This document shows, piece by piece, positions 1 through 9,198 of a DNA stretch of 64,000 nt. Source of the stretch: Bacteroidota bacterium (GTDB lineage Bacteria > Bacteroidota > Bacteroidia > UBA8524). Under the pieces are notes generated by a model. The model saw nothing but the letters and a program-made list of their open reading frames with translations. It searched no databases and was not told the origin of the DNA. The DNA is taken from contig WBUH01000001.1 in the NCBI GenBank assembly GCA_008933805.1, positions 310,001 through 374,000 of the forward strand. Direction: 5' to 3'. A program made the position numbers and the translations under genes. Within the stretch, counting starts at the first letter, position 1. Every line of letters starts with the position of its first letter.

Positions 1-155
1 AATCACATTTGCAATAAGTAACTTCCTTCGTCAGTAAGACAGGTTTATGGGTGTGCTGGTTGCACCCAGTCATGTTGAACTTTTTTCAACATCACATTAT
101 CAATTCACGATAAATACAGATTGAGATCCCGAATCAAGTTCGGGATGACAGGACA
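1..155 (-). repeat. Dispersed intergenic repeat, inverted copy (truncated by window edge)
   Basis: Reading the reverse complement of this stretch gives a diverged copy of the tandem units at 7704-8159. The blocks keep the same order: a hairpin around GATCCCGAATC/GTTCGGGATG, an AACGGTAAT-like block, a second hairpin (ATGTTGAA/TTCAACAT), an ACCTGTC-CTGACGAAGGAAG-like block, and an ATTACAAATGTG-like block. The left part lies outside the window. It contains no gene. The upstream extension of the aroB reading frame (121-234) runs into it and is not coding. Confidence 0.85.
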
Positions 156-234: not shown

Positions 235-1263
235 ATGCAACTGATTAACGACCACATTGTAATAAGCGATAACGGTATCGAGTACCTCGCCAATTTTGTT
301 AACTCGCGCGATTTTGAAGGCATATTTGTGCTGGCCGATGAAAATACGGTGCAACACTGTGTGCCGTTATTGCAAGGGTTTGATTTTGAAACCATCGTTA
401 TCCCCGCAGGTGAGCAGCATAAAACCCTTACCACTTGCGAGCTGATTTTTGATGCCCTGATAGCCAAACACGCCAACCGTAAAAGTTTGCTGATAAACGT
501 TAGCGGCGGGGTAGGGGGCGATATGGGCGGTTTGTGTGCATCGTTGTTTCAGCGCGGCATTTATTTCATCAACGTACCCACCACATTACTTGCCATGGTG
601 GATGCCAGCGTGGGAGGCAAGTTGGGGGTAGATTACAAAGGACTAAAAAACTACATCGGGGTGTTTAAAGAGCCGTTGGGGGTGTTTATCCACCCGCCGT
701 TTTTGCAAACACTGCCAGAACGTGAACTAAAAGCGGGTTTTGCCGAAATGCTGAAACACGCTCTGATTGCTGATGCCATCCACTGGGGAGAGTTGCAGGA
801 GTTTAATCCCCGCAGGTTTAAAACATGGATAACCGCCAGCGTTGAAATTAAAGACCATATTGTAGAGGAGGATATGCACGAAAACGGCAACCGTAAATTG
901 CTCAATTTCGGCCACACCATCGGCCACGCTGTTGAATCGTGGTTTTTAAAACACAACAAAGACTTACTACATGGCGAAGCAGTGGCATTGGGGATGCTGT
1001 GCGAAGCCTATCTTTCACAAAAAATAGGATTATTGGCCGAAGAACTGCAAAGCGTTGTAGCGGGAATTAAAAAGCATTACACCTTACCCAGAATTGAAGA
1101 AAGCAGCTTTGACGAACTGTTGCAACTAATGGGCGCAGACAAAAAGAATACCCAAGCGGGCATTAATTTCACCCTGCTGCGTACCATAGGCATGGGGTCG
1201 ATAGATAACTACTGCACCCCCGACGAAATAAAACAGGCATTGCAGTGGTATAACAGCCTTTAA
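235..1263 (+). CDS. aroB: 3-dehydroquinate synthase
   Basis: Second step of the shikimate pathway: converts DAHP to 3-dehydroquinate using NAD and a divalent metal, in the cytoplasm. With the start at ATG 235 the protein has 342 residues. The NAD-binding GGVGGDMGG lies at about 91-99, followed by NVPTTLLAMVDASVGGK (about 113-129), the metal-ligand region GFAEMLKHA (about 168-176), and the histidines of NFGHTIGHAVE and LLHGEAVALGM. The frame is open back to a TTG at 121, but that extension is translated intergenic repeat and does not resemble the family N-terminus, which starts near MQLI. It is followed 38 bases later by rfbA and then aroA on the same strand, so one transcript is likely. Confidence 0.95.
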   Translation: MQLINDHIVISDNGIEYLANFVNSRDFEGIFVLADENTVQHCVPLLQGFDFETIVIPAGEQHKTLTTCELIFDALIAKHANRKSLLINVSGGVGGDMGGLCASLFQRGIYFINVPTTLLAMVDASVGGKLGVDYKGLKNYIGVFKEPLGVFIHPPFLQTLPERELKAGFAEMLKHALIADAIHWGELQEFNPRRFKTWITASVEIKDHIVEEDMHENGNRKLLNFGHTIGHAVESWFLKHNKDLLHGEAVALGMLCEAYLSQKIGLLAEELQSVVAGIKKHYTLPRIEESSFDELLQLMGADKKNTQAGINFTLLRTIGMGSIDNYCTPDEIKQALQWYNSL

Positions 1264-6040: not shown

Positions 6041-7681
6041 ATGAAGATAGCGCTGGCACAGCTAAACTACCACGTAGGCAATTTTGATAACAACGCCCGC
6101 AAAATTATAGATACCATACAGCAAGCAAAAGCACAAGGTGTTGCGTTGGTGGTGTTTTCTGAATTATGCCTTACAGGGTACCCTCCGAAAGATTTTTTAG
6201 AGTTTAATGACTTTATACGCTTAAGCGAAGAACACATTGATTTGATAGCGGCTGAGTGCAAAGGGATTGCTGCCATTGTAGGAGCCCCTTCGCGAAACAC
6301 CGCTGCAGGCAAACCCTTGCGCAACAGTGCATACGTATTGGAAGGCGGGGAAGTGAAAACCATTGTACATAAAACCCTGCTGCCCACTTACGATGTGTTT
6401 GACGAATACCGCTATTTTGAGCCGAATACCTTTTTTCAAACCGTACAGGTGGCAGGCTTAAATATCGCTCTTACGGTGTGCGAGGATTTGTGGAACATTG
6501 GCAACGAAAGATTGTACCCTCAATCGCCGATGGACCAATTGTATAAACAACAGCCCCGTTTGATGGTAAACATTGCCGCGTCTCCGTTCGGGCAGTTTCA
6601 TATCGAAACCCGCAAGAACATTTTGTTGGAGAACGTGCAGAAATACAAACTGCCGTTGCTGTATGTGAACCATGTGGGCGCACAAACCGAGCTGGTATTT
6701 GACGGCGGCAGCATGGCCATTAACCCCAACGGAACGGTGGTGGATGAATTGGCTTATTTTGATGAAGAGTTTAAGCTGTATGATTTTGAAAACGGACAGC
6801 TAACCCAAATTGGCGACGACCATAGCTTTTTACCTACCGAACGTATAGAGCTGGTGCACGATGCACTGGTTACAGGCATACGGGATTATTTTAGAAAATC
6901 AGGGTTTACAAAAGCAATACTGGGCAGCAGCGGCGGGATTGACTCGGCTGTGGTACAGGCACTTGCTGTAAGGGCGTTGGGTGCTGAGAATGTGCGGGCA
7001 GTTTTGATGCCCTCGCCGTTCAGCAGTCAAGGCAGTGTGGATGATGCTGTGGAGTTGTGCAAAAACTTAGGTAACCCGTACGATATTATCCCGATTAATA
7101 AACCCTATGATGCCTTTAACGATACGTTGAAGGATATTTTTGCAGGCCAGCCGTTCAATATTACCGAAGAGAATATACAGAGCCGTAGCCGTGGCATATT
7201 GCTAATGGCAATAAGCAACAAATACGGTTATATACTGCTGAATACCAGTAATAAAAGCGAGTTGGCAGTGGGGTATGGTACTTTGTACGGCGATATGTGC
7301 GGCGGACTTAGTGTGATAGGAGATGTGTACAAAACACAGATGTACGATTTGGCAAGGTTTATCAATAAAAACGGGGAGGTGATACCCGATAATATTTTGA
7401 CCAAAGCCCCCAGCGCAGAGCTACGCCCCGACCAAAAAGACACTGACAGCTTACCTGAATACGATTTGTTGGATACTATACTCTCGTTGTATATAGAAGA
7501 CCGTTTAGGGCCTGCTGAAATAATAGCGCAAGGCTACGACGAAGCACTGGTACTAAGGGTATTGAAAATGGTAAACACCAACGAGTATAAACGCTACCAA
7601 ACTCCTCCTATTTTGCGGGTAACCAACAAAGCCTTTGGCAGTGGCCGCAGGATGCCTATTGTTGGTAAGTATTTAAGTTAA
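6041..7681 (+). CDS. nadE: Glutamine-dependent NAD+ synthetase
   Basis: Last step of NAD synthesis: amidates nicotinic acid adenine dinucleotide with ammonia released from glutamine. The 546 residues form two domains. The N-terminal nitrilase-type glutaminase has the triad E41 (FSELCLTGYPP), K111 (HKTLLPTYDVFDEYRYF) and C147 (LTVCEDLWN). The C-terminal ATP-pyrophosphatase domain has SGGIDS at about 297-302 and the LLNTSNKSELAVGYGTLYGDM region. It is complete, in the cytoplasm, and preceded by a small barrel gene on the same strand. The tandem intergenic repeats begin 22 bases after its stop. Confidence 0.96.
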   Translation: MKIALAQLNYHVGNFDNNARKIIDTIQQAKAQGVALVVFSELCLTGYPPKDFLEFNDFIRLSEEHIDLIAAECKGIAAIVGAPSRNTAAGKPLRNSAYVLEGGEVKTIVHKTLLPTYDVFDEYRYFEPNTFFQTVQVAGLNIALTVCEDLWNIGNERLYPQSPMDQLYKQQPRLMVNIAASPFGQFHIETRKNILLENVQKYKLPLLYVNHVGAQTELVFDGGSMAINPNGTVVDELAYFDEEFKLYDFENGQLTQIGDDHSFLPTERIELVHDALVTGIRDYFRKSGFTKAILGSSGGIDSAVVQALAVRALGAENVRAVLMPSPFSSQGSVDDAVELCKNLGNPYDIIPINKPYDAFNDTLKDIFAGQPFNITEENIQSRSRGILLMAISNKYGYILLNTSNKSELAVGYGTLYGDMCGGLSVIGDVYKTQMYDLARFINKNGEVIPDNILTKAPSAELRPDQKDTDSLPEYDLLDTILSLYIEDRLGPAEIIAQGYDEALVLRVLKMVNTNEYKRYQTPPILRVTNKAFGSGRRMPIVGKYLS

Positions 7682-7703
7682 TCCCTTGTCTTTCTGACGA
7701 AGT

Positions 7704-7954
7704 CAGTCATCCCGAACTCGATTCGGGATCTCACTGGAATTCATCTTGAAACGGTAATGCGATGTTGAAACAAGTTCAACATGACGGGATGCAAGCAGTA
7801 CATCCAAAAACCTGTCCTGCTGACGAAGGAAGTATCTTATTACAAATGTGTTTTAGCTTTGTTGACACAGTTGGGATAAGAAATTTCGCTGAGCTCAATT
7901 TGACAGTAGCGGCTACGCGACGGATTTCCTGAGCTTGTCGAAGGGTGCGGCTGG
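7704..7954 (+). repeat. Intergenic repeat, tandem unit 1 (251 bp)
   Basis: The unit begins CAGTCATCCCGAACTCG. Hairpin A is ATCCCGAA/TTCGGGAT near 7708-7729, and hairpin B pairs ATGTTGAA with TTCAACAT near 7761-7783. A CTGTCCTGCTGACGAAGGAAG block and a long stretch to GACAGTA (7902-7908) follow. The last 46 bases (CCTGAGCTTGTCGAAGGGTGCGG region) are unique to this copy and carry the widespread GAGCTTGTCGAAG motif. The unit realigns with 7955-8159 at a constant offset of 251 without gaps. Confidence 0.9.
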
Positions 7955-8159
7955 CAGTCATCCCGAACTCGATTCAGGATCTCACTGGAATTTATCTTGA
8001 AACGGTAATGCGTTGTTGAAACAAGTTCAACATGACGGGGTGCAAGCATTGCTCACAAAAACCTGTCCTGCTGACGAAGGAAGTATCTTATTACAAATGT
8101 GTTTTAGCTTTGTTGACACAGTTGGGATAAGAAATTTCGCTGAGCTCAATTTGACAGTA
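7955..8159 (+). repeat. Intergenic repeat, tandem unit 2
   Basis: It repeats 7704-7908 at an exact offset of 251 bases with few substitutions, mostly in the hairpin part; the last 110 bases are almost identical. Hairpin A has one disrupted pair here (TTCAGGAT instead of TTCGGGAT), and hairpin B has one change (TTGTTGAA). This suggests a recent tandem duplication followed by drift in the left part. Confidence 0.9.
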
Positions 8160-8244: not shown

Positions 8245-9198
8245 TTACTCCTCATCACCCAAATCTGATGGGTTTTCAGGGGCATCCAGGTCGATTTTTC
8301 CGCCGAGGGTTTCCATTATTTGGGCAAGTTGCTCCACCTTGTCGCGTTGGTTGGTTTGCGTGTAGGCAGTTACAAGGTTGCGTACCACACGTTTAATAAT
8401 CTCAATGTTTGAGCAGGGCAAGAAATAGCTGTCCAACGGCTCTAAACGCAGTTGACGCAAAAACTCATCCACGTTGTATTTGCTAAACACCAACCCTTTA
8501 TTAAACGGGTTAATGTAAAACATCACATCGCTAAACAGTTCAGGCGAGAGGCGGGGAGGCTCTTCGTGATATTCCAACGGTTGGTCGGGATAATTATCCA
8601 TGTAAGCCAATATGAAGTGCTGCGGTAAATTGACCCCGAAAATCGGGATATTAAGCCGCTGTGCGATGATAGAATAGATGATGGCTAATGATATAGGGTT
8701 GCCTTTGCGACGTTCGAGCACGGTGTTTATAAACGAGTTCTGCGGCGAATGGTAAGTGGCTGTGTCACCTTTAAATACGTTCACGTCGTAAAAAATATGA
8801 TTAAGAATCCGCACTTTTTCCAGCGCGGTTAAGTCATATTTCAACTCCAGCCAGGCATCCAGCTTTATTTTATTGAGCTTATTGTCCAGCTCTTGCTTGT
8901 TAAGATTAGGGTATTGGTAGCGGGTAATCAGGTAAAAACCTTCAAAAAGATCTTTGTCGGGTGTGTTTTTCCAAGCTATCAGTTCGTTTTTGAGCGCATC
9001 AAACTGGATGATGTTTACCAATCGCTCTACCTTTTCCTGCACCCGCGGGTCAGCATCAGAATCCCAATACTTCTCCAGCAGGGTTACCGCATCGGTTCCC
9101 AGCGACAATAAATGCCCCTCTACAGACTTCACTACTTCCTCGTCGGTGTCGTCCAATAAAGATAGCATTGCCGCAAGTTCACGTTCCGTAATCATCAC
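8245..9198 (-). CDS. SirB1-like transglutaminase-fold protein
   Basis: The 317 residues begin with a helical, HEAT-like N-terminal part (about 1-65, LLDDTDEEVVKSVEGHLLSLG). The core has the SirB1/Transglut_core2 signature: ERRKGNPISLAIIYSIIAQRLNIPIFGVNLPQHF. In place of the catalytic cysteine of true transglutaminases there is a serine in GNPISLA, as in other members of this group, so it may not be an enzyme. The C-terminus is acidic (PENPSDLGDEE). It starts 15 bases after the topA stop on the same strand, so it is probably cotranscribed. The function is not established. Confidence 0.8.
   Translation of the reverse strand: MMITERELAAMLSLLDDTDEEVVKSVEGHLLSLGTDAVTLLEKYWDSDADPRVQEKVERLVNIIQFDALKNELIAWKNTPDKDLFEGFYLITRYQYPNLNKQELDNKLNKIKLDAWLELKYDLTALEKVRILNHIFYDVNVFKGDTATYHSPQNSFINTVLERRKGNPISLAIIYSIIAQRLNIPIFGVNLPQHFILAYMDNYPDQPLEYHEEPPRLSPELFSDVMFYINPFNKGLVFSKYNVDEFLRQLRLEPLDSYFLPCSNIEIIKRVVRNLVTAYTQTNQRDKVEQLAQIMETLGGKIDLDAPENPSDLGDEE

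Follow-up and report, generated by a model that had tools for sequence, protein, structure and literature searches.

The repeat at positions 7704–8159 of the 64,000-nt stretch of Bacteroidota DNA analysed here (hereafter the window) is a run of two alternating hairpin-tipped REP dimers, denoted R1 and R2, without being a 251-bp mobile element. Very probably, these are non-autonomous dimers of the REPIN/BIME kind in a tandem array, amplified locally by tandem duplication and presumably kept as hairpins at transcript ends.

Organization of the arrays in the window

Self-comparison of the window aligned 7704–7908 with 7955–8159 as a 205-nt pair, 96% identical, at an offset of exactly 251, as the first-pass annotation had described. 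That annotation had also reported a single diverged, inverted copy at the window start; the inverted matches exist (1–115, 83%; 122–149, 96%) but form the end of a three-unit array, C1:309450–310149, lying mostly to the left of the window. The array at 7704–8159 separates a NAD+ synthase gene from the convergent gene of a Transglut_core2 protein, and the features of both arrays and their neighbours are as follows:

1–40, minus strand: R2 dimer, left half, cut by the window start (whole: C1:309948–310040; R2 model)
41–68, minus strand: R1–R2 linker, 28 nt
69–149, minus strand: R1 dimer, head-to-head pair of a CCCGAA-arm and a GTTGAA-arm REP (R1 model, E 8.6e-20)
235–1263, plus strand: 3-dehydroquinate synthase gene, right of the left array
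6041–7681, plus strand: NAD+ synthase gene with a carbon-nitrogen hydrolase domain; array directly after the stop
7688–7702, plus strand: truncated R2 left arm, array edge
7706–7785, plus strand: R1 dimer, first unit (R1 model, E 1.6e-19)
7786–7813, plus strand: R1–R2 linker, 28 nt
7814–7904, plus strand: R2 dimer, first unit (R2 model, E 1.5e-19)
7905–7956, plus strand: R2–R1 linker, 52 nt, with a small palindromic motif, CCTGAGCTTGTCGAAGG, at 7928–7944
7957–8036, plus strand: R1 dimer of the second unit, its CCCGAA arm with a single mismatch in the stem (R1 model)
8037–8064, plus strand: R1–R2 linker, 28 nt
8065–8155, plus strand: R2 dimer of the second unit, with the same sequence as that of the first (R2 model)
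8245–9198, minus strand: Transglut_core2 protein gene, convergent neighbour of the array

The 251-bp unit thus consists of R1 (80 nt), a 28-nt linker, R2 (91 nt, against 93 in its model) and a second linker of 52 nt. This layout modifies several details of the earlier description: the CCCGAA/TTCGGG hairpin ascribed to each copy bears one mismatch in the second (CCCGAACTCGATTCAGG), the common motif placed in one copy (GAGCTTGTCGAAG) sits in the linker at 7928–7944, outside both dimers, and the possibly functional "conserved right part" is simply the second dimer, R2. The two arrays do bracket the 235–7681 gene block, as noted earlier, but they are two among many and need no special explanation. 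A composite transposon formed by this block and its inverted flanks was considered and dropped, since both arrays are unremarkable representatives of a family spread over the genome.

R1 comprises two head-to-head hairpins with 8-bp stems, a 5-nt loop (in arm A1) and GTC tags, in the order GTC-ATCCCGAA-loop-TTCGGGAT ... ATGTTGAA-loop-TTCAACAT-GAC. Its arms are unlike in sequence, and a simple scan recovered 24 pairs, 21 of which had spacers of 29–31 nt. GTC was present at 68 of 76 ends, preceded by C (31), A (28), G (5) or T (4), 96.6% of stem cells were paired, and the tail 3' of the stem was mostly CTCA or CGCA. R2 is a TGTC-tagged pair (35 of 36 ends) with shorter stems of 4–7 broken pairs, and larger loops.

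Conservation of the single hairpin

Among 33 copies of R1, 22 compensated cells (a count of sequences rather than of independent events, some changes being common to related copies) fell in the two local 8-bp hairpins, against 5.6 in shuffles, with 0 of 500 shuffles as high, whereas a hairpin spanning the whole dimer yielded a single compensated cell, a value reached by 500 of 500 shuffles. The contrast between local and dimer-wide pairing is independent of the changes shared among related copies. Since the local hairpins covary and the dimer-wide one does not, what is conserved is the single hairpin. Conservation likewise peaks in the REP tips, and the spacers vary.

Copy number and gene context

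Searches of the genome (4.29 Mb, 40 contigs) with a 245-nt query returned 62 matches, grouped in clusters, of which about 15 were almost full length. The core hairpin pattern GTCATNNNGAACTNGNTTCNNNATC occurred 91 times with at most one mismatch, compared with 0 occurrences of the reversed pattern; the repeat family is far beyond chance. Covariance models located about 55 sites for R1 and 18 canonical ones for R2, besides about 30 relatives of R2, each place being counted once, whichever the strand. Several R2 relatives were also arrayed, at 270–320 bp, and R1 was additionally arrayed at about 225 bp with other linkers. The first-pass annotation had proposed searching for further copies and for compensatory changes between them; both were found, and its REP-like reading proved right. 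Mosaic clusters containing further hairpin repeats (GTCATTGCGAGG..., ATTCCCGCCTGCGCGGGAAT, AAAGTCCCCTTTAGGGGATT) were observed at C12:18000–25500 and C20:37300–38150 of the same genome assembly (G000).

Nearly all sites were intergenic, with 1 of 104 inside a long ORF, and they lay mostly just 3' of genes. In stretches chosen for containing elements, and with simple ORF calling, gaps with elements were convergent in 25 cases, co-directional in 18 and divergent in 5, compared with 28, 145 and 56 of the gaps without them (P 7.6e-9 for convergent gaps).

Formation of the arrays and alternative explanations

In ten arrays, R1 and R2 strictly alternate (R1-R2-R1-R2) in one relative orientation, with near-constant linkers. 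Read by eye, either dimer can stand first or last in an array, and the edges mostly fall no more than a few nt from a tag; as exceptions, C3:45189 retains a linker and the end at C2:18465 is inexact. Mean identity was 89.6% within arrays and 80.5% between them, with one between-array pair reaching 88.2%. This greater likeness within arrays supports dispersal of the composite together with local tandem duplication, and could instead have come from gene conversion. No direct repeat longer than 4 nt was found over 62 flank pairs, comprising isolated dimers and the outer edges of arrays.

A MITE-like element, as the first-pass annotation had suggested, would have a length of about 205–251 bp and make the whole composite a single transposon bounded by terminal inverted repeats and mobilised by a transposase of the DDE or Y1 type. 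Its recurrence at about ten loci with similar linkers is what such an element would give, but R1 is widespread without R2, arrays start and stop with either dimer, and the lack of a target duplication above 4 nt in all 62 elements speaks against the MITE-like label; we regard this origin as very improbable. The annotation's other suggestion, a structured RNA, taken here as a non-coding or cis-regulatory RNA in tandem whose transcript would be the 251-bp unit, draws on the covarying hairpins and on a unit that folds better than shuffles (z -3.3). Against it, Rfam gave no match at the gathering threshold, the elements face either way with respect to genes and lie mostly in convergent gaps, and the most conserved parts are the REP tips rather than the spacers, with R1 alone being common. 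A structured-RNA family is therefore very improbable, and the elements, when transcribed, can act as RNA hairpins.

Position just after stop codons and the convergent bias would equally suit duplicated ordinary intrinsic terminators, and one slot of a related genome (e183, G061) does hold a plain terminator-like hairpin between an A-tract and a T-tract. Nevertheless, the R1 hairpins are followed by CTCA or CGCA and not by T-runs, a crude terminator scan of convergent gaps showed no difference with and without elements (7/25 vs 5/28), and identity across loci and phyla is far above what terminators need, making this explanation improbable.

The preferred reading, REP dimers in locally amplified tandem arrays, would take the short head-to-head hairpins with an unpaired GTC tag (R1), or a TGTC tag (R2), as the functional units. 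The dimers would have spread from tag to tag as non-autonomous elements, possibly through cleavage of single-stranded DNA at the tag, by analogy with the action of TnpA-REP enzymes on GTAG REPs. The composite R1-linker-R2-linker would have formed once, reached about ten loci of the genome and multiplied there by local tandem duplication, as the identities within and between arrays support. Elements may persist at stop codons where a transcript-end hairpin is harmless or useful, for instance by blocking 3' exonucleases or by limiting read-through from either member of a convergent gene pair.

Comparison with known REP families

CGTC-tagged REPs, including the family CGTC-2, have already been described in Bacteroidetes as well as in other phyla (Di Nocera et al. 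2013, PMC3733652). They carry an unpaired CGTC tag (often TGTC or CCTC), an 8–9 bp stem starting from A-T pairs and a 4–5 nt loop, and most have tails fitting CCA, with no strict requirement. R1 resembles CGTC-2 in its GTC-type tag, its 8-bp stem starting with A-T, its 5-nt loop, its head-to-head heterodimers, its location at convergent or unidirectional gene ends and the lack of a flanking transposase, and differs in the frequent AGTC for CGTC and in the CTCA/CGCA tail. R1 thus shows most features of CGTC-2, although its tag varies and its tail differs. The R2 stems, in contrast, are too short for the 8–9 bp stem and 4–5 nt loop of this class, and R2 is REP-like but outside CGTC-1 to CGTC-4.

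With the BIMEs and REPINs of gamma-proteobacteria, the elements share two inverted REPs per unit, tandem copies, intergenic location and REP-type mosaics. Unlike those systems, based on GTAG REPs and RAYT/TnpA-REP, neither the GTAG tag nor a REP-flanked cognate RAYT gene was found here, and the repeat is therefore not a GTAG REP/RAYT REPtron. Neisseria dRS3 clusters (CGTC-1) are likewise large mosaic intergenic clusters of CGTC elements with other repeats, but dRS3, compared through its description in PMC3733652, is a 4-nt loop family of different sequence.

Candidate mobilising enzyme

The genome contains three intact Y1 (IS200-like) genes, one of them about 4 kb from an array, and mobilisation of the elements in trans by Y1 transposases, which bears on the enzyme alone and could hold together with the preferred reading, is possible though doubtful. 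It would be in line with the cleavage of tagged single-stranded DNA hairpins by E. coli TnpA-REP (PMC8266576). However, no REP flanked the three Y1 genes or the other Y1 genes checked, the catalytic motifs DHVH, WQ and YIxNQ resemble a subclass listed without REPs (PMC6006769), and the REP-positive genome G013 gave no Y1 match. Y1 was found in 7 of the 9 genomes with REPs and in 36 of the 51 without them (P = 1), and its presence is unrelated to that of the REPs. Both results agree with PMC3733652, according to which CGTC REPs have no dedicated transposase and their movement was left open in 2013.

A more far-reaching and rather unlikely proposal is that CGTC-type dimers spread without RAYT, by another enzyme or by template switching at replication forks, and that unrelated hairpin repeats (GAACTTG dimers, GTCATTGCGAG dimers, other palindromes), interchangeable in function as bidirectional transcript-end elements, successively occupy the gene-end slots of these Bacteroidota. 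Template switching would also explain swapped loops, swapped arms and tandem arrays.

Occurrence and turnover in other genomes

Matches to the R1 model were detected in 9 of 60 relatives, own genome included; R1 was absent from all four family-level relatives, and the relatives examined included no same-genus genome. Two members of one genus, G007 and G053, gave more than 70 matches each, both strands being listed. A strict exact dimer pattern hit 4 of 396 genomes of the class, but is over-strict, recovering just 3 of the roughly 55 sites of the own genome. The composite junction pattern, searched across 84,980 species, had no match outside the own genome, in a search that may leave out own or very near records.

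An exact 50-letter dimer pattern was found in Mucilaginibacter, Cnuella, other Bacteroidota, Ignavibacteria, Melainabacteria, Alphaproteobacteria, Treponema and candidate phyla, several of these records being MAGs, in which single contigs may be misbinned. In several phyla, the dimers are isolated, with the same letters, and start abruptly at the tags amid unrelated flanks. An Ignavibacteria contig (L125; JABAQZ010000018.1, Bin_45) carries dense dimer arrays at 100–2900, in which the half-hairpins CATTGTCATCCCGAACACC and AGGGTGTTGTTCAGCATGAC themselves recur about every 20 bp, as though slippage had copied the arms.

Turnover at gene ends was followed in the genus of G007, a genome whose dimers carry CGTC in nearly all tags, using seven genomes with flanks roughly 80–97% identical, eight dimers and orthologous gene ends. 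In 39 comparisons, made by eye in slots picked for the presence of a G007 dimer and hence showing turnover without giving a rate, a dimer of the same kind was present in about 19 and no element in about 10; a hairpin repeat of another type took its place in about 8, and small genes had been inserted in 2. The replacing repeats were GTCATTGCGAG dimers, palindromes of AACGCTGATTT, CCTCTCC or CACAGATTT, and one plain terminator-like hairpin. The dimers are thus polymorphic between species of this genus, and the gene-end slot often has an unrelated hairpin repeat. No clean empty site was found for the eight dimers in up to six genus mates, whose flanks are too diverged for exact boundaries, and insertion from tag to tag is for this reason only inferred.

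Some copies in this genus have swapped arms or a loop replaced by another palindrome. Single REP hairpins with the loop replaced by CCCGATAGCTATCGGG or CCGCCTTAGGCGG were seen in the G063 and G053 orthologues of L177:8478–8537 and L177:7587–7685, and in the G062 and G063 orthologues of L186:8394–8453. The slot orthologous to L177:8478–8537 contains about 580 extra nt in G060 (L215) and G053 (L219), with two small reading frames that, by eye, resemble a toxin-antitoxin pair of the PIN type. A further palindromic repeat, also dispersed (GAACGCTGATTTTTATGATTATTAAGAT...), lies at L177:13448–13533 and is present in three genus mates and missing in three.

The class of element is known. What is new is the strictly alternating array, as we found no description of two unlike dimers strictly alternating in tandem arrays in the available part of PMC3733652, together with the exchange, in a related genus, of one hairpin repeat for an unrelated one at a given gene end. 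The seven-genome genus of G007 offers a practical comparative system for the movement of CGTC REPs and for a possible replacement of terminators by such repeats, and the genome analysed here shows that two unlike dimers can lock into one composite that is then dispersed and amplified.
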